A DNA stretch of 35,246 bases from Bacteroidales bacterium. Its GTDB lineage: Bacteria; Bacteroidota; Bacteroidia; Bacteroidales; UBA3663. A program made the position numbers and the translations under genes. Numbering within the stretch: the stretch's first letter is position 1; each line of letters starts with the position of its first letter. The stretch covers positions 1-35,246 of the forward strand of contig JAILKE010000060.1 of assembly GCA_024694125.1 (NCBI GenBank), read 5' to 3'. This document shows, one piece after another, positions 27,548 to 35,246 of the stretch. The notes beneath the pieces are model-generated. The model was not told the origin of the DNA. It worked only from the letters and a program-made list of their open reading frames with translations, and ran no database searches.

Positions 27548-29128
27548 ATGAAACGATTCCCCTCGTTACTTGTTGCGGTACTCCTTCTTTTGCATACAGG
27601 GCTCTCGGCCCGGGTAATAGGCGAACAGGACGCAGTTATTCTATTCGACAACGACGTACACGGACACATGGACGGCTATGCCAAGTTTGCAGACCTACGC
27701 AAAGCCACCTTACGCCAGACGCCAAATGTGTGTGTTGTCTCTCTGGGCGACTTTGCTCAGGGTGGACCTTTGTGCTCAGTTTCGCATGGACAATATGCGG
27801 TTGACATCATGAACGAAGTAGGCTATGACTACATCGCACTGGGCAACCACGAGTTTGATTATGGCATCGAACAGTTGCACCAGTTGACCGGTTCCTTGCA
27901 TGCCAAGACTCTCACATTCAACTTTGTAGATATTGCCACCCAGCGTCCGGTGTTCGCGCCCTATGCCATACGCCAGATGGGCAGCCACAAGGTAGCCTTC
28001 ATCGGCTGCGTCACCCCCATCACACGTCACAGCGATGCTCCGGACAGTTTCGTCGGTCCCGACGGCAAGGATATGTACACCTTCTGCCATGGCACCTTCT
28101 GCACCCTATTGCAGCAATATGTGAACGAAGTCCGTGCCATCGGAGCAGACAAGGTAGTGCTGCTCGCGCATCTGGGCGATGTGGACAATGCGTTCGAGAC
28201 ATCCGAGGAGGTCATCCATTCCACCTACGGCATTGATGTCGTACTGGACGGACACGCACATCACGTCATCGAGTCACGCCGTCTGTGCAATGCCAAGGGC
28301 GATTCCGTCCTGATGTCCTCGTCTGGAGCACATTTCCAGTACATGGGCCGACTCGTCATTGATGCCGAGGGCAACTGCTCCTCCGACCTGATCGATGTAT
28401 CGAAATACCAGGGTTCAGACCAGGACATTCCCGTCAAGTTAGCCGCCATGCAGAAGGCCTTCGACAATCTTCCTGTCATTGCCAAGACTCCCTATGACCT
28501 GGCAGCCTTCGACTATCAGCACGACACCTACGACCGCAACTGCCAGACCAACCTCGGTTCGCTCTGCGCCGATGCCTTCCGTGTGATGAGCCGTGCCGAC
28601 ATCGGTTGGGTCAATGCGGGTGGCATACGCGCCTCCATCCCGGCAGGCAACATCACCTTCAAGGAGTTGCTCAATGCCTTCCCGTTCGAGAACAAGATCT
28701 GCGTCTGCCAGTTCACCGGTCAACAGATCATGGATGCCTTGGAATACGGCATCTCCCGTGCTCCCGAGGACAATGCCAGCTACCCACAGGTATCGGGCAT
28801 CAGCTACGATGTTGACATGAACGTCAAGCCCAATATCCTCACCGATGCCACCGGCGGATTCATTGCCATAGGCGAAGGTCCCCGACGCGTACACAACATC
28901 CGTGTACTCAACCCCCTCACCAATCTCTACGAGCCTATCAACCTTGCCCATCCCTACAAGTTAGCATCCATCGACTTCATCCTGCTCAAGGGCGGATGCA
29001 ATGGAATGCTCTCCAAGGGTATGCTCATAGCCGATGACCAGATGGTCGATACCCAACTCATCGAGAACTACATCCGCACCCAGCTCAACGGCGTCATCGA
29101 CGAAGCCTACAAGGATTACAAGCAATAA
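27548..29128 (+). CDS. Exported 5'-nucleotidase / metallophosphoesterase, UshA-type
   Basis: This 526-residue enzyme dephosphorylates extracellular or periplasmic nucleotides. A signal peptide (about 1-21, LLLLHTGLSA) precedes the calcineurin-like metallophosphatase domain: LFDNDVHGH (metal ligands D36 and H38), SLGDFAQGG, ALGNHEFDYG near 100, LLAHLGD and VVLDGHAHH. The C-terminal 5'-nucleotidase domain (about 320-500) carries NLGSLCADAFR, WVNAGGIRA and FPFENKICV. Both domains are in one polypeptide, as in E. coli UshA. It is divergent from the AKR operon, has its own promoter box and ends at a strong terminator. The exact substrate (AMP, UDP-sugar or cyclic nucleotides) is unknown. Confidence 0.93.
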   Translation: MKRFPSLLVAVLLLLHTGLSARVIGEQDAVILFDNDVHGHMDGYAKFADLRKATLRQTPNVCVVSLGDFAQGGPLCSVSHGQYAVDIMNEVGYDYIALGNHEFDYGIEQLHQLTGSLHAKTLTFNFVDIATQRPVFAPYAIRQMGSHKVAFIGCVTPITRHSDAPDSFVGPDGKDMYTFCHGTFCTLLQQYVNEVRAIGADKVVLLAHLGDVDNAFETSEEVIHSTYGIDVVLDGHAHHVIESRRLCNAKGDSVLMSSSGAHFQYMGRLVIDAEGNCSSDLIDVSKYQGSDQDIPVKLAAMQKAFDNLPVIAKTPYDLAAFDYQHDTYDRNCQTNLGSLCADAFRVMSRADIGWVNAGGIRASIPAGNITFKELLNAFPFENKICVCQFTGQQIMDALEYGISRAPEDNASYPQVSGISYDVDMNVKPNILTDATGGFIAIGEGPRRVHNIRVLNPLTNLYEPINLAHPYKLASIDFILLKGGCNGMLSKGMLIADDQMVDTQLIENYIRTQLNGVIDEAYKDYKQ

Positions 29129-29211: not shown

Positions 29212-29453
29212 AAAGGTTAAGGATTAAAGGTTATGGGTTAAGGGCTCCACCAACTGCATGATATTTAACACAATCTCACATCAAAAATTGCTAAAATCAT
29301 CCCCTAAATGAACAATTTTGCCACAATATCGACATTTTTTCTACTATTTTTGCTCACTTTTTAATAATAATATGTATTTTTGCCAAGTCTAACAGACGCC
29401 AACGAGCGAACTGGCTTGATGGCAGAGGAAGACACATATACATAAATAAGGCG
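29212..29453. other. AT-rich spacer before the structured RNA
   Basis: No gene is seen. It starts with short GGTTAAGG-type repeats. A second promoter-like pair lies at TTTG 29349-29352 and TATTTTTG 29375-29382 (22-base spacing). That could start a longer form of the RNA gene or a separate short transcript. Confidence 0.45.
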
Positions 29454-29461
29454 TATCTTTG
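29454..29461 (+). promoter_or_regulatory. -7 box of the structured RNA gene
   Basis: TATCTTTG, a perfect -7 match, lies 12 bases before the first closing stem of the RNA, so the predicted transcription start falls next to the 5' end of the fold. No TTTG is at 19-21 bases upstream. Confidence 0.6.
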
Positions 29462-29467
29462 CGCTTT

Positions 29468-29707
29468 GGTTTTGACGTGTTGGAACTTCGCAACTTCTAT
29501 AACGTTAGTCAAAAACAAAGCAACAAGATCGCCCCTTGGGATGTTTTATATTCCCTCATGCGACACCAGCCCATCGAGGCAGGCGCCAGCGGGAGAACAT
29601 ATTTGCATCGGCGTGGGGCTTTCGTTGTTGCTCATTTCGACTAACAGGTAATGCGAAGGCCTCAACACGTGAAATGAGTAGCTACCGATGGCTCCACGTC
29701 TTTTTTT
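29468..29707 (+). ncRNA. Free-standing structured RNA with pseudoknot (about 240 nt)
   Basis: The segment folds as a unit. Outer stem: GACGTG (29474-29479) with CACGTC (29695-29700), followed by seven T, forming the terminator. Inner stem: CATCGG (29606-29611) with CCGATG (29685-29690). Within it lies an H-type pseudoknot: GGGGCTTTCG (29615-29624) pairs with CGAAGGCCTC (29654-29663), and CTCATTTC (29631-29638) pairs with GAAATGAG (29671-29678), the two helices crossing. A promoter box precedes it. It does not show tmRNA, RNase P or SRP signatures. From memory the layout (own Bacteroidetes promoter, intrinsic terminator) suits the Bacteroidales-1 RNA or a Bacteroidetes 6S-like RNA; I cannot tell which, if either. 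Short reading frames through it are not credible. Confidence 0.8.
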
Positions 29708-29992
29708 ATGTCTATGTCAACCTTAACTGAATAACACGATAGACTATCTGAGAGCCAATAGTCAATACCGCGAAGTTTGGGATTTCAAGTAGATTGATTC
29801 GAAATAAGGAGGTTATTATCATACACCTTTTGTATATTTACCGACACACAGCACTCCAGCTATCATTTCGTAATATATTACATTTTGCAGTCAATATTAT
29901 TCTTTAATGCGAACAAACGCACATCCTAACTTCCATCTGCATCCCTAAGATGCTTATATTTGCACACGTTCAACTTATTTACACTTTAAGTT
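29708..29992. promoter_or_regulatory. Spacer with a -7 box (29955-29962) before the small gene
   Basis: Mostly AT-rich and non-coding. TATATTTG at 29955-29962 matches the -7 consensus and is 30 bases before the next ATG. The -33 position is not TTTG. I see nothing else in the spacer. Confidence 0.45.
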
Positions 29993-30214
29993 ATGCCACT
30001 GTATAAAATCACCACCAAGTGCCGTACCAATACCAACGGCGTCTTCATCGAACCGGGAATGACCGTCCAGGTCGTTTCCAAGTCTCTCAGTAATCCTGTT
30101 CTCTCCGACGGCGGACGCCTCGTTGCCGAAGCCTTCATGCGCGTCTATGGCGTTGACCTGAAGCGCGCCGGAGCCCTCAACTCCATGTACCTGGATTGCG
30201 AACGAATCGGATAA
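29993..30214 (+). CDS. Small conserved-looking protein (possibly DUF6140)
   Basis: This is a 73-residue soluble protein. Its sequence starts MPLYKITTKC, continues IEPGMTVQVVSKSLSNPV, and ends MRVYGVDLKRAGALNSMYLD. The pattern of a short beta-sheet half and an amphipathic helix recalls a small Bacteroidales hypothetical family that I remember as DUF6140; this is not checked. A probable promoter box precedes it and a membrane-protein gene follows after 13 bases, so it leads the downstream gene run. Its composition (about half GC in one counted line) is closer to the housekeeping genes than the rest of the run. No function is known. Confidence 0.75.
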   Translation: MPLYKITTKCRTNTNGVFIEPGMTVQVVSKSLSNPVLSDGGRLVAEAFMRVYGVDLKRAGALNSMYLDCERIG

Positions 30215-30227
30215 AACCTTAACAAGT

Positions 30228-30596
30228 ATGTTTGAAGGAAAAATAGCCAAGAAATTAGGTGGCAGCCTCTTTCCTGAAGAGGATCTCAAGAAGATGGTAC
30301 ACACCCATGCTTTCTGTGCGGCTTTAGTCATAGGTCTCCCATTATTTGGGTTCGACTGGATTGCTTTTGTTGTCATACTATGGCACATGTACTCCAAACT
30401 GGCGGAACGTGCTGGCAAGGAATTTGGATGTGGCAGCATCATACTCGGAATGATCGTCAATATAGTTTTCGTCATCATATACGACAGCTTGACCTCATTT
30501 ATTCCTGTATTAGGATGGATTACTTCTGCAGGACTCTGTTACCTCCAGTTCTATACATCCGGCAAAGCATACATTGAGACGCTCAAGAGGATGTAA
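30228..30596 (+). CDS. Small polytopic membrane protein, unknown function
   Basis: This 122-residue protein has a charged cytoplasmic-type N-terminus (1-25), a long hydrophobic stretch at about 27-55 that may be two short helices, then membrane segments at about 69-87 and 90-108, and a basic C-terminus. The tail IPVLGW...YTSGKAYIETL faintly recalls the end of DUF697/YcjF-type proteins, but I do not rely on that. It starts 13 bases after the 73-residue gene, which argues for co-transcription, and is 90 bases before the next gene. I do not recognise the family. Confidence 0.8.
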   Translation: MFEGKIAKKLGGSLFPEEDLKKMVHTHAFCAALVIGLPLFGFDWIAFVVILWHMYSKLAERAGKEFGCGSIILGMIVNIVFVIIYDSLTSFIPVLGWITSAGLCYLQFYTSGKAYIETLKRM

Positions 30597-30686
30597 AAAA
30601 GCAAGATAGCAACCTTATGAAGCGCTTAAACATTCAAATATAAGTGACTTTCATTTTTAATACATTCAAGCTAAAAACCATAAAAA

Positions 30687-31211
30687 ATGATTACATTTTT
30701 CATTCTTTGCATCGTGGCATCTATACTAATAGTTAAGGCTGCCAACAATAAAAAGAGGTCTCCTCAAGAAGAAGAAGAACGCAGGGAAGAAATTGCCAAA
30801 TTGCCAGATATTTATCTGAATGCGAAGACACTCACATCGGGAGAAAAAGCCCTAAATTTATGGCCAAGGGATGTAGATGTGTTACAAACCCTAGAGTTTA
30901 AAAGTGGAACCAACAACATCTACTTAAAAATGAAAGATGGACGATCCATCTTATGCGATATTGATGACCTCGAGATGCATTTTAGCAAAACTAATGGAGT
31001 TATTAGATTCGAGGCAAGGTATAATGGAACTGGCTTTTCTTTTTACCAATATGCATATTATTTCTCTGACAAAGAATGGGACATCATCATCAATCTACTG
31101 TCTTTAGCAGGGACGACTCATGGCGCTTATGTTTTGGGTTCTGCATTCAAGAATATCAAAAGAGCTCAAACGGCCATGAAAATCATCAAGGCTCTTAACA
31201 GTTTCCGTTAA
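30687..31211 (+). CDS. N-anchored protein of unknown function
   Basis: This 174-residue protein has one N-terminal membrane segment (about 2-18). A highly charged helix follows (NNKKRSPQEEEERREEIAKL), then a globular part with alternating strands: LQTLEFKSGTNNIYLKMKDGRSILCDIDDLEMHF, a pattern like a small PH-like or beta-sandwich domain (guess). It ends with basic helices. With no signal-peptidase site, the soluble part probably faces the cytoplasm. Not recognised. It belongs to the same-strand gene run ending in the AAA+ ATPase and shares its raised AT content. Confidence 0.78.
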   Translation: MITFFILCIVASILIVKAANNKKRSPQEEEERREEIAKLPDIYLNAKTLTSGEKALNLWPRDVDVLQTLEFKSGTNNIYLKMKDGRSILCDIDDLEMHFSKTNGVIRFEARYNGTGFSFYQYAYYFSDKEWDIIINLLSLAGTTHGAYVLGSAFKNIKRAQTAMKIIKALNSFR

Positions 31212-31265
31212 TAATTCGAAAGGCGTTTTTCGTAATAATATATAATAACATATAAAAATTAGAGT

Positions 31266-31613
31266 ATGAATACATTTGATGAGATCTTGAAATCTGTTTT
31301 GAAGACAGTAGAAGACAATCCGACAGCAAACATAGATGAGCTGTTGGCTGCAAAAATGGCGGAATTCGGTGTTTCTGCCGAGAACCAAAAGTTACAGCAG
31401 GAGACCAGTCGTTACATTGATGCCTTTGACGAAATGAACAAGAAACTTCAAGAAGCGAAAGAACAAGGGGCTACTCGCAAGCAATGGATTCAGGACGAAA
31501 TCATTGCAATTGCGGACAAGCATCAGTTGAACGATGAACAGAAAGAGCAACTTTTCAATTCGCTCGCACAAGGATTCAATGACTCTATTAATAACTCTAA
31601 TACCGATAAGTAA
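31266..31613 (+). CDS. Small helical protein, unknown function
   Basis: This 115-residue protein is predicted by eye to be nearly all helix. It is acidic, with a central coiled-coil-like stretch (YIDAFDEMNKKLQEAKEQ) and a second helix pair (DEIIAIADKHQLNDEQKEQLFNSL). It has no membrane segment or recognisable catalytic motif. Its stop is two bases before the ATG of the next gene, so the two are probably made together and may bind each other. Not recognised. Confidence 0.8.
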   Translation: MNTFDEILKSVLKTVEDNPTANIDELLAAKMAEFGVSAENQKLQQETSRYIDAFDEMNKKLQEAKEQGATRKQWIQDEIIAIADKHQLNDEQKEQLFNSLAQGFNDSINNSNTDK

Positions 31614-31615
31614 TT

Positions 31616-32284
31616 ATGGATTTCGAAAAAGTAGCAGAAGCCACGTCCTTAATTGAGAACGTAATAGGATACAACGCCAATGAAGATGCAACGCAGGAAC
31701 TATTTATAGACGACAATATAGAAGCTGGACCCGCAAACAAGACAATCTCAGAATTCCTTGATTCTCCATTGGGAGACGAAAAGGAATCTATCATGAAAAA
31801 GATTTTCACCACAGCAATGGTCGTTGCGAAGGATAAGGATATAATTCCAGACATTCCTAATGACGCTCAATCAATAGCCAGTTATGCAGACAACGCACTG
31901 ACTCGAATAAAAACCGCTTACAAGGTGAAGCTTGGTTTAATATCACCAGAAGAGGCCATCAACACAATGATAGATCATATGGCAGCAAGAGTTACCTGCT
32001 CTATTAACTTTCTGGTTGACTCTGGGATAATCGGAAACGGTGCTGCAGAATTATTGGCAAAAGGAGCATATTTAATACCCAAAGTTGGGACTTTTGTTGG
32101 ACCTTGGGTAGAAAAGTGCAAACCTGCAATTAGTTCGTTCATAAACAATGCCGGACAAAAAGCAAAATCAGTGATTCACTCCGGAATTAAAATGGTTACT
32201 GAGACAGCAAAAAGTTGTGTAAATAAAGTCTTCGGGACTATAAGAGAAAAAGTAACGGCTGGTTGGAATAAATTATTTTCATAA
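31616..32284 (+). CDS. Protein of unknown function with Gly/hydrophobic core segment
   Basis: This 222-residue protein has an acidic N-terminal half (about 1-60) and then helices (IASYADNALTRIKTAYKVKLGLISPEEAI). A hydrophobic, glycine-rich segment lies at about 130-165 (DSGIIGNGAAELLAKGAYLIP), and an amphipathic basic C-terminus follows, which might touch membranes. I do not recognise it. It follows the 115-residue gene by two bases; after its stop a strong hairpin separates it from the next gene. A structural or effector role in the gene run is only a guess. Confidence 0.8.
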   Translation: MDFEKVAEATSLIENVIGYNANEDATQELFIDDNIEAGPANKTISEFLDSPLGDEKESIMKKIFTTAMVVAKDKDIIPDIPNDAQSIASYADNALTRIKTAYKVKLGLISPEEAINTMIDHMAARVTCSINFLVDSGIIGNGAAELLAKGAYLIPKVGTFVGPWVEKCKPAISSFINNAGQKAKSVIHSGIKMVTETAKSCVNKVFGTIREKVTAGWNKLFS

Positions 32285-32287
32285 TGT

Positions 32288-32315
32288 GATTACCACCTCG
32301 TTCGAGGTGGTAATC
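32288..32315 (+). terminator. 12-bp hairpin inside the gene run (attenuator or processing site)
   Basis: GATTACCACCTC (32288-32299) pairs perfectly with GAGGTGGTAATC (32304-32315) around GTTC, three bases after the preceding stop codon. The tail is CTCTTTATC, only moderately T-rich, so termination may be partial. It could lower expression of the two downstream genes or protect the upstream message. Confidence 0.6.
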
Positions 32316-32350
32316 CTCTTTATCTACCTCACCCTCAAAAGAATAATAAT

Positions 32351-33613
32351 ATGAAATTAGAACCCATAGCTAAACCTATTAGAATCAGAATCAAATTAGG
32401 GAAAAGCGAATATTCAAGTCTTGATTCTGTAAAATGCAATTTCTCAATGAAAGAAATATATCCACTTTTCAAGGATCACAGATTAGAGAGATGGCTCATA
32501 CAGAATGGTGAAACAGAATTTGCAGACAAAGTACAAAAGGCAACTTCAATCTTCCCAGAGGGGAGCTTCGAAGATTATATTTTACTAATTTCCCTATTTT
32601 TCGAAAATATAAAGGAAACAATGCCGTCACAAGGCAATCTACTCTCATGGTCTTTTAATGACTTTATAAAGACGGCTAATGAAGAAACTTTTACTACCAT
32701 TTACGACTATACAAAAGGCCTCACTTTTTTGATTCCAGAGAATCCGTCAGCTATCGGTTGGGGGAATATGTTAGCACTAAAGGTAACTGATGAGAATGAA
32801 TACAAGAGAATATTTTCTCTTTTAACTTCATACTACGTAAAGAATACAGATTCGAAAGAGATTCTAATGGATCTTGAGTCCTATATGCATGAAACCAACA
32901 ACAATGGATTCAACTGGGAGATAATATACCAAAATGAAATGACGTTAGAAATTGCAAAAGAATGGTATCTAGAGTTTCCTTTTTTAACAAATAGCGTAAT
33001 CAATTGGAATTCCATTTTTGAAAAATTGATAAAAAATGTCAATGACGTAAAGGACTTAAAAAAAATCATTTCAAAAAAGGATTTCTATGAATGTTTCAAT
33101 AAACTTTCCCCTCACCTTGGCGATTGGATTTGTTTGGCCAATAGCGAAGAATACAAAAGTGTAAAAAAAGAAATCAAAAAATGGCAAAAAGAAAGGGAAT
33201 ATTATACTTCTGATGACTGGAACGATCGTGATTTAGACAATAATTCTTCAGAATTAGCGAAACAAATAATAAACTTCCTTGAAGGGGCAGCAAAAAGATA
33301 CCCAGATGAATATTTTTATTGGGTAGACGAAGAGGAAAATACTTGGTATCATTTAAAAGCTGAAAAAAAACTATTATATTATGCCGCCGAATTTTCTTAC
33401 TGTTTTAGCTCAGAAAAAGATAAACTAAGGCCCAAACTAAAAGCCCTTAAAAATAAAAATTCAAATCTATCGAGTATAATCGACATCGTGCTCAAAAAAG
33501 ATTATGATTATGAAGACATAGCAAGAAAAGTCGTCGGTCATATTGAGAGCAAATTAGACAAATACGCCAATAAAAAATTGAAATCGTCTATATCTAATAA
33601 AAAAAGAAACTAA
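32351..33613 (+). CDS. Large helical protein of unknown function, AAA+ gene neighbour
   Basis: This 420-residue soluble protein is very AT-rich (one counted 60-base line is 25% GC). The N-terminus has a module, SLDSVKCNFSMKEIYPLF then DHRLERWLIQNGETEFADKV, of a kind I recall at the N-termini of diverse bacterial repeat and effector proteins: an F-x-LxxL-like helix plus a D-x-RLxRWL helix. The middle is helical and aromatic-rich (WSFNDFIKTANEE, NNGFNWEIIYQNEM). The C-terminus is strongly basic (YANKKLKSSISNKKRN). No enzyme motif is seen. It ends 65 bases before the Ycf46-type ATPase gene, and I infer it is a substrate, adaptor or partner of that ATPase. Confidence 0.8.
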   Translation: MKLEPIAKPIRIRIKLGKSEYSSLDSVKCNFSMKEIYPLFKDHRLERWLIQNGETEFADKVQKATSIFPEGSFEDYILLISLFFENIKETMPSQGNLLSWSFNDFIKTANEETFTTIYDYTKGLTFLIPENPSAIGWGNMLALKVTDENEYKRIFSLLTSYYVKNTDSKEILMDLESYMHETNNNGFNWEIIYQNEMTLEIAKEWYLEFPFLTNSVINWNSIFEKLIKNVNDVKDLKKIISKKDFYECFNKLSPHLGDWICLANSEEYKSVKKEIKKWQKEREYYTSDDWNDRDLDNNSSELAKQIINFLEGAAKRYPDEYFYWVDEEENTWYHLKAEKKLLYYAAEFSYCFSSEKDKLRPKLKALKNKNSNLSSIIDIVLKKDYDYEDIARKVVGHIESKLDKYANKKLKSSISNKKRN

Positions 33614-33678
33614 ACAGGAGAAACTTCGAAAATAAAAGGAAATTTTCTTATTAGAATTGTAGATTTATAAAAGAAAAA

Positions 33679-35246
33679 ATGAATAACAACATAATATCAT
33701 CATTTCAAAAAATGATTGATGTAAACATACCCATCATTTACATCAATGATTATGACTTCGCAAGGGTGGACCAGCTCATATTGCAAGTTGTTGGATCGAA
33801 GAAAATTGAAGAATGGAATCCTGCGACTGGCTGCACTGATTTCAGGAATAAAGCATCTATTGGCGATAGTTCTCTTGAGACATTTCTAAGAAGTAGATAC
33901 ACCGTGGAACTACCTCAGAGTGCCCCTGCTCCTAACAATAGTTTTATCGTGCTCAAAGAGATACAGGACTATATTGATGAACCTAAAATCAAAACCCTAT
34001 TGGCTCTGATGTCTCAAAGAAAGCTCTACGACCGGAGATACGAGAAGACAATTATCATAGTCTCCTCTATGCTCAAAGTTCCTCAGGAAATAGAGAAGTA
34101 CGTATCATATCTGGAAATCAATCTCCCTGATCAGGCCGAGATAGACGAGCTGATAGACCAGCACATTGAGATCAACAAATACGACAAATCGAAATTCACA
34201 GAAGAAGACAGAGACAAGCTGATGCCATCACTCAAGGGTATGACAGCATTCGAGATAGACCGTATGCTGGACATGGCCATGAGCAGCAACGGCTCGCTGA
34301 GTGCTGATGACCGAGAAATGATACTGGTACAGAAGAAACAAATGGTCCGCAAGTCTGGCGTGCTCGAACTCATTGACACTCCTGAAAGCATAGACAGCAT
34401 CGGCGGCATCGAGATTCTCAAAAACTACCTGAAAAAGAAAGCCTCAATTTACGCGAGACTGCCAGAAGCCATCAAGGCTGGTGTATCGGTCCCCAAAGGC
34501 GTCTTTCTGGTGGGTATGCCTGGATGCGGCAAGTCCCTGTGTGCCAAAGCAGCCGCTGCACTGTTTAACAAAGTTCCTCTGCTGAAAATGGACATGGGCA
34601 GCATGATGAAGAAATACGTAGGTGAAAGTGAAGAGAATCTACGCAAAGCCCTGCGAATAGCCGAAGCCGCAGCACCATGTATTCTGTGGATAGACGAGAT
34701 TGAGAAAGCATTCTCGGGTGTAGGTGGCAACAATGACATCATGACCAGAATGTTTGGCTATTTTCTATCCTGGATGCAGGAGAAGAAAAGTGCCGTTTAC
34801 GTTATCGCCACTGCCAACAACGCTGACAAATTGCCTCCTGAATTAAAACGTAAAGGTCGATTTGATGAAATATTCTGCATCAATCTACCGAACCAGGAGG
34901 AAAGAGAGGAAATTTTCAAAGTGCACATCAATAAAAAAGACCGTTCCTTGCCGCGAAATGAAGGTATTGGGTGCAAACTTGATAAAAATATTGATTATAA
35001 AGAATTGGCAAACTCAACTAAAGGATTCAATGGCGCTGATATCGAATCGGTCATCAACGAAGCTGTTGAAGACTGCTTCCTCTCGGACTCCAATAGCAAA
35101 TTGTTAACCACTGACATCATATTAAATATAGCCAAAGATACCAAAAGTATCTCCAAATCATGCAGAAGTCAAATTGAGAAAATGGAAACTATCTTCGAGG
35201 AAAATGACTTTACCAATGCATCCAATAATCCATATTGGCTACTTCC
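33679..35246 (+). CDS. Ycf46-type AAA+ ATPase (partial, runs off the window)
   Basis: At least 522 codons remain open to the window end. The first ~250 residues (MIDVNIPIIYINDYDFARVDQLI...SFIVLKEIQDYI...EKTIIIVSS) match the N-terminal domain seen in cyanobacterial/plastid Ycf46. Then comes a full AAA+ core: Walker A GMPGCGKS (279-286), the GESEENLRKAL helix, Walker B ILWIDE (335-340), sensor 1 ATANN (377-381) and arginine-finger region RKGRFDE (391-397). After it FNGADIESVINEA begins the lid domain. Such ATPases act as hexameric remodellers; Ycf46 proteins have no firmly assigned job. It is the last visible gene of the run. The core is much richer in GC than its own ends. Confidence 0.92.
   Translation, partial: MNNNIISSFQKMIDVNIPIIYINDYDFARVDQLILQVVGSKKIEEWNPATGCTDFRNKASIGDSSLETFLRSRYTVELPQSAPAPNNSFIVLKEIQDYIDEPKIKTLLALMSQRKLYDRRYEKTIIIVSSMLKVPQEIEKYVSYLEINLPDQAEIDELIDQHIEINKYDKSKFTEEDRDKLMPSLKGMTAFEIDRMLDMAMSSNGSLSADDREMILVQKKQMVRKSGVLELIDTPESIDSIGGIEILKNYLKKKASIYARLPEAIKAGVSVPKGVFLVGMPGCGKSLCAKAAAALFNKVPLLKMDMGSMMKKYVGESEENLRKALRIAEAAAPCILWIDEIEKAFSGVGGNNDIMTRMFGYFLSWMQEKKSAVYVIATANNADKLPPELKRKGRFDEIFCINLPNQEEREEIFKVHINKKDRSLPRNEGIGCKLDKNIDYKELANSTKGFNGADIESVINEAVEDCFLSDSNSKLLTTDIILNIAKDTKSISKSCRSQIEKMETIFEENDFTNASNNPYWLL

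Follow-up and report, generated by a model that had tools for sequence, protein, structure and literature searches.

A gap free of coding sequence in a Bacteroidales genome raises the question of what kind of RNA it encodes, and whether that RNA ends at its run of U residues or belongs to the genes beyond. The gap extends from a 5'-nucleotidase gene (ending at 29128) to a DUF6140 gene (29993–30214) within the stretch of 35,246 nucleotides that was analyzed, hereafter referred to as the window. The first-pass annotation, which correctly described the gap as noncoding, had placed in it a free-standing RNA gene of ~240 nt with crossing helices. Its central claim was a functional structured RNA with such helices that belongs to none of the known families, and both homologues and covariation support this claim. 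The RNA is longer than proposed, and across its copies it appears to act as a 5' leader to the operon that follows it rather than as a gene of its own.

At the Rfam gathering level, no match was obtained to the RNA in the window or in five homologous loci, and at E-values up to 10 the window yielded just unrelated families far under their thresholds. No Rfam match to tmRNA, RNase P RNA or SRP RNA was found, consistent with their earlier exclusion by signature; the suggested membership in Bacteroidales-1 or a 6S-like group likewise found no match. On the + strand, the stretch concerned folds with a z of −3.6 against shuffled sequence (0 of 200 shuffles as good). The − strand scores −6.75, so folding energy alone cannot identify the strand.

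Homologues and distribution of the RNA family

In a blastn search of 60 relatives, partial matches were identified in 8 genomes (the source genome included), several per genome, and the extracted copies were alignable along their length. A covariance model of the 3' domain, built from 13 copies and spanning 103 positions, matched 63 of 393 sampled genomes of Bacteroidales, with at most nine copies per genome, and only two genomes, both Bacteroidales, in a phylum-wide sample of 395. Matches listed from a pattern scan of named genomes include Prevotella, Bacteroides, Muribaculaceae, Xylanibacter rarus and Prevotellamassilia timonensis, and in the genus of B. caecigallinarum at least one copy is present in 47 of 61 genomes. 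Homologous regions thus occur in related genomes of the genus as well as across Bacteroidales. The widespread RNA family is real, and no description of it was found in the literature searched.

Phage and plasmid collections queried with the window copy gave no match. The same collections queried with a B. caecigallinarum copy returned two sequences that the model confirmed, a B. finegoldii plasmid and a scaffold labelled as phage; a pattern scan of viral contigs found no copy. On the plasmid (L297, NZ_OY725942.1 24449–32509), the copy lies ahead of hypothetical and outer-membrane beta-barrel genes.

Two other readings of the element were rejected. The copies are too divergent for a mobile repeat of the REP/IS-like kind (median identity 55%, closest pair 87%), and a coding function is contradicted by an open frame in only 12 of 105 copies and by lengths covering all three values modulo 3.

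Extent and structure of the RNA

The borders of the element in the window were assigned as follows.

29375..29382, + strand: candidate Bacteroidetes -7 promoter box TATTTTTG (TAnnTTTG), conserved upstream of copies
29388..29763, + strand: leader RNA element as a whole, running from the inferred start through the hairpin that follows the U-run, based on homologues, the covariance model family and a full-length alignment of 105 copies

We infer a start near 29388 from the position of the conserved box; the annotated start near 29468 has to be moved accordingly, and the "promoter box" formerly placed at 29452–29463 lies inside the conserved hairpin P1. A second TATTTTTG is present at 29345–29352. 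Among the copies, TAnnTTTG occurs within 150 nt upstream of the RNA in 107 of 140 and within 150 nt after the U-run in 11 of 143, and it lies 290–425 nt ahead of the RNA end (105 copies). Counted from the inferred start, the leader RNA is ~320 nt long at the U-run and ~375 nt long where the downstream hairpin closes.

Helices were evaluated by comparison of 105–145 copies. In the swap test, the own-strand pairing energy of each copy was set against that of strands exchanged between copies; since related copies inflate this test, it was run a second time with the comparison restricted to the three nearest relatives. Covariation was assessed with a custom-written, tree-based test on 105 copies with 40 null alignments, which also scored adjacent non-pairing columns (29486–29657), as expected for linked columns. 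The 5' domain and the pseudoknot comprise the following features.

29387..29433, + strand: P0, variable 5' hairpin domain; in the window GTCT 29387–29390 with AGAC 29430–29433 (swap z −14.9)
29450..29465, + strand: P1 hairpin, GGCGT...GCGCT (swap z −5.9; nearest relatives p 0.03)
29465..29519, + strand: P2, 29465–29476 with 29508–29519 (swap z −14.6; nearest relatives 69 better, 31 worse, p 1.8e-4)
29475..29482, + strand: P_L1 5' strand ACGTGTTG, partner 29663–29670 (swap z −42)
29482..29498, + strand: H2, short hairpin 29482–29485 with 29495–29498, loop CTTCGCAAC (swap z −10.6)
29486..29492, + strand: P_L2 5' strand CTTCGCA in the H2 loop, partner 29652–29658 (nearest relatives 55 better, 0 worse)
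29627..29637, + strand: P_B 5' strand GTTGCTCATTT, 11 bp with partner 29672–29682 (swap z −12)
29652..29658, + strand: P_L2 3' strand TGCGAAG, partner of 29486–29492
29663..29670, + strand: P_L1 3' strand CAACACGT, partner of 29475–29482
29672..29682, + strand: P_B 3' strand AAATGAGTAGC, partner of 29627–29637, overlapping the 5' arm and loop of the terminator-like hairpin T

Support in both the general swap test and the nearest-relative test was obtained for P0, P1 (weakly), P2, H2, P_L1, P_L2 and T. Against nearest relatives, P0 scores 67 better and 35 worse (p 2e-3) and H2 reaches p 3.2e-5, with pair 29483–29497 covarying at E 1.4e-3. The core of P1 is near-invariant across copies. A further candidate, P_alt (29520–29525 with GTTGC), is invariant in sequence and hence gives no covariation readout.

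The loop of P2 holds the 5' strands of both P_L1 and P_L2. The long-range helix P_L1 is hypervariable, with 93 distinct sequences in 105 copies, and the own partner pairs better than those of the nearest relatives in 104 of the 105 copies (1 worse); covariation was detected at 29482–29663 (E 1.9e-8), 29481–29664 (E 1.0e-4) and 29477–29668 (E 1.2e-4). In P_L2, pairs 29487–29657 (E 9.5e-6) and 29486–29658 (E 5e-4) covary. All 11 positions of P_B are paired in each of the first 13 copies and pair 29634–29675 covaries (E 7.6e-4); this covariation lies between subgroups, and the comparison of P_B with nearest relatives gave no significant extra signal.

All four complementarities named in the first-pass annotation are literally present in the sequence, and one of them stood up to comparison of homologues. 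This is the 8-bp helix 29631–29638/29671–29678, which is real and extends to the 11-bp P_B (29627–29637/29672–29682). The 10-bp helix 29615–29624/29654–29663 is not supported (swap z −2.3; nearest relatives 29 better, 42 worse in 105 copies) and conflicts with better-supported helices, its 3' strand being taken up by P_L2 and P_L1. The outer stem 29474–29479/29695–29700 (swap z +0.4) and the nested stem 29606–29611/29685–29690 (swap z +1.3) are attributable to chance.

Diverged copies, designated subtype II, were found ahead of DUF6140 genes in G000:C78, G013:C84 and G013:C56. In G000:C78, P_L2 reads TCTGGTAAA/TTTACCAGA in place of CTTCGCA/TGCGAAG, and by inspection P_L1 and P_B are changed to match. 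Model scores of subtype II are weak (14–26 bits), so that the assignment rests equally on aligned features. DUF6140 genes also follow the copies at L092 and L190 (~260 nt away) and the subtype II copies at L293–L295.

The terminator-like hairpin and pairing across the U-run

The 3' end of the element carries a second set of features.

29667..29699, + strand: T, terminator-like hairpin, 29667–29671 (ACGTG) with 29695–29699 (CACGT) (swap z −11.8)
29689..29694, + strand: P_K 5' strand TGGCTC in the 3' arm of T, partner 29752–29757 (GAGCCA), by copy-by-copy complementarity
29701..29707, + strand: U-run after T
29742..29763, + strand: hairpin beyond the U-run, GACTAT[CTGAGAGCCA]ATAGTC, its loop being the P_K 3' strand, by local hairpin scoring

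T is supported against nearest relatives (62 better, 23 worse, p 2.8e-5); its stem comprises only 5 bp in the window, whereas elsewhere it reaches as many as 8 bp. The earlier reading of a T-run was correct in that a U-run is present in 141 of 145 copies, and incorrect in ending the RNA there, as conserved pairing goes on to ~29763. This pairing is P_K, whose swap z across 145 copies is −17.6, compared with −3.0 for a scrambled control, and which scores 76 better against 27 worse in the nearest-relative test (p 1.4e-6). In 64 of 145 copies, the best-scoring local hairpin carries the P_K 3' segment within its loop. Among 14 further copies, some mutually orthologous, 11 reach −9.8 kcal/mol or better (swapped mean −7.3); the exceptions are L294 (−7.9), L293 (−5.0) and L310 (−4.4 kcal/mol). 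The clearest failure is L310 (1–6601), which lacks both the U-run and P_K, is followed solely by genes on the opposite strand, and is apparently a decayed or decoupled copy.

T shares strands with P_L1 and with P_B in 105 of 105 copies, although the computed lengths of these overlaps are inflated by loose duplex ends; the P_L1 3' strand overlaps the 5' arm of T. T and its competitors P_L1 and P_K all covary. Comparison of T, P_L1 and P_B thus predicts a terminator, composed of stem and U-run, that is mutually exclusive with an alternative helix.

A further candidate, P_close, would pair an A-rich stretch before P1 with the U-run. Its swap z is −6.3, but the signal vanished against nearest relatives (49 better, 52 worse), and the helix is therefore not claimed.

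Genomic context of the copies

Among 133 scorable copies, the next open reading frame of 100 aa or longer shares the strand of the RNA in 123 cases and runs opposite to it in 10; the strand split of upstream frames is 75:55. The median distance from the U-run to the start codon of same-strand genes is 71 nt, and usually no promoter box is located between RNA and gene. Copies are thus placed directly upstream of a gene and on its strand, as a cis-acting attenuator would be, less clearly so in the window.

The downstream operons are unrelated and include restriction/defence systems, BspA surface proteins, kinases, DUF6140 and one UpxY capsule operon. BspA-type leucine-rich-repeat proteins are found among the neighbour genes of 28 copies; other neighbours encode SNF2/HKD defence helicases, a cytosine methylase with HpaII, kinases, caspase-like proteins, CsgG-type lipoproteins and radical SAM clusters. 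These genes share no common pathway, and hence suggest no riboswitch ligand. Two orthologous copies, L304 and L306, head a capsule operon whose first gene encodes an UpxY antiterminator (NF033644, E 7.8e-51). Among the loci fetched, upxY lies near no other copy; the copies at large are thus not UpxY-dependent capsule leaders, and UpxY is not their general partner, because it adjoins just these two.

By inspection, an operon recurs after the RNA at L078, L142, L151, L153, L157, L162, L183, L197 and L201, mostly in Prevotella-type genomes. It encodes small Tat-signal-like precursors, a radical-SAM-like protein and TatA/TatC-like proteins, and may represent an uncharacterised system for peptide modification and export.

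The copy in the window

Two features downstream of the RNA bear on the window copy itself.

29955..29962, + strand: candidate promoter box TATATTTG of the DUF6140 gene's own
29993..30214, + strand: first annotated downstream gene, DUF6140, 73 aa (Pfam PF19637, E 2.9e-30)

The U-run is 286 nt from the DUF6140 start. Given this gap, the T stem of just 5 bp and the gene's own candidate box, the window copy may be poorly coupled to DUF6140. The literature search returned nothing on DUF6140 or on such a leader RNA; descriptions in other papers are possible. The DUF6140 gene opens what looks like an uncharacterised accessory operon (29993–35244), in which several small proteins with no Pfam match are followed by an AAA ATPase (33679–35244).

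A close orthologue of the upstream 5'-nucleotidase was found in six genus-mates, and no RNA copy lies downstream of it in the five with downstream flank; the sixth locus (L290) is less informative, as it stops ~640 bases past the gene. Since these five genus-mates show no RNA there, the RNA and its downstream genes probably form an accessory block at this site.

Elsewhere in the window, positions 163–207 score above the gathering threshold for Acido-Lenti-1 RNA (RF01687). Matches to this family number 35 in the window's genome and 20 and 28 in two other genomes of the order, with none in most relatives; several are closely spaced opposite-strand pairs near contig ends, an appearance suggestive of a patchy multi-copy repeat.

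Proposed function and alternative explanations

On these comparisons, we consider it reasonably likely that the element is a cis-acting 5' leader controlling read-through of an intrinsic-terminator-like hairpin ahead of accessory operons. Such leaders would probably decide whether the downstream genes are transcribed. This interpretation is supported by the 123:10 strand bias, the 71-nt median gap and promoter boxes that lie upstream but rarely between RNA and gene. Moreover, the 5' arm of T is common to P_L1 and P_B and its 3' arm to P_K, which corresponds to an attenuator layout, open when the RNA is folded and closed when the terminator forms. With the fold formed, P_L1 and P_B would hold the 5' arm of T and RNA polymerase would pass the U-run; with the fold absent, T would form and transcription would stop. 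After read-through, P_K would join the 3' arm of T to the hairpin loop beyond the U-run and lock the open state; it cannot itself prevent termination at the U-run, because it forms only once the U-run has been transcribed. Some signal, whether a metabolite, a protein or a polymerase factor, would presumably tip the balance, and the mixed gene content makes a global signal or a general antitermination factor likelier than a pathway metabolite.

Processive antitermination of the put- or EAR-like type, in which the folded leader would bind polymerase and confer resistance to terminators farther down the operon whatever its genes, also accommodates the position before multi-gene operons regardless of gene type, the conserved structure past the terminator and the one copy heading a UpxY capsule operon. 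It needs no covarying terminator inside the element, such as T, and we regard it as unlikely. A free-standing, trans-acting small RNA gene that ends at the U-run and precedes operons only incidentally appears quite improbable: the RNA does have its own promoter box, a terminator-like end and deep structure, an opposite-strand gene comes next in 10 of 133 copies, and the window copy is separated from DUF6140 by another box, yet the strand bias and spacing across copies, together with conserved pairing that spans the U-run, argue against it. Control of translation or stability of the read-through mRNA, with regulation exerted by P_K and its hairpin before the start codon and the U-run serving only as one side of a closing helix, would suit the position of P_K shortly upstream of many start codons. 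It would also suit the complementarity that many copies show between the U-run and the A-rich stretch ahead of P1 (swap z −6.3). This explanation has little to recommend it, given that the closing helix is unsupported against nearest relatives (49 better, 52 worse) and that T covaries as a hairpin with a U-run after it in nearly all copies.

We tentatively raise a broader possibility, itself rather doubtful, that the family constitutes a Bacteroidales-wide switch gating horizontally variable operons (defence, surface proteins, capsule) by one shared, gene-independent antitermination mechanism with a lock helix across the U-run. If the attenuator interpretation is correct, many accessory operons of gut Bacteroidales (restriction, defence, surface and one capsule) would be governed by a single RNA-based mechanism missing from RNA databases, which would offer a shared, testable way into the question of when these genes are expressed.

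Comparison with known systems

HMP2_1881, a candidate structured RNA of 108 bp, is described as occurring mostly in Bacteroidetes near radical SAM genes and as expressed in fecal samples (Fremin and Bhatt 2021, PMC8040213). One subgroup of the present family also lies ahead of radical SAM operons, and HMP2_1881 could be either a fragment of the leader family or distinct from it.

In Bacteroides fragilis, transcription is reported to stop prematurely within capsule leaders, a termination that UpxY relieves (PMC7819879). The present RNA resembles these leaders in being a 5' leader with predicted premature termination, and the orthologous copies L304 and L306, which lie in just such a leader, fit that reported behaviour. 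In contrast to the capsule leaders, nearly all copies precede unrelated operons that lack upxY. No description of a structured RNA family of this kind for UpxY capsule leaders was found in the literature searched.

Among processive antitermination RNAs, phage HK022 put RNA and the Bacillus EAR element are likewise cis-acting leaders ahead of long operons, independent of gene function. Both are smaller than the leader RNA described here and are not known to contain a covarying terminator. They bear no sequence relation to it.

Transcription-attenuation riboswitches and other terminator-type leaders share the overall layout, namely a structured 5' domain and a closing helix that shares the terminator 5' arm, followed by the U-run and the gene. 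The present RNA differs from them in having no Rfam match, common gene theme or known ligand, and in possessing a conserved helix that spans the U-run.
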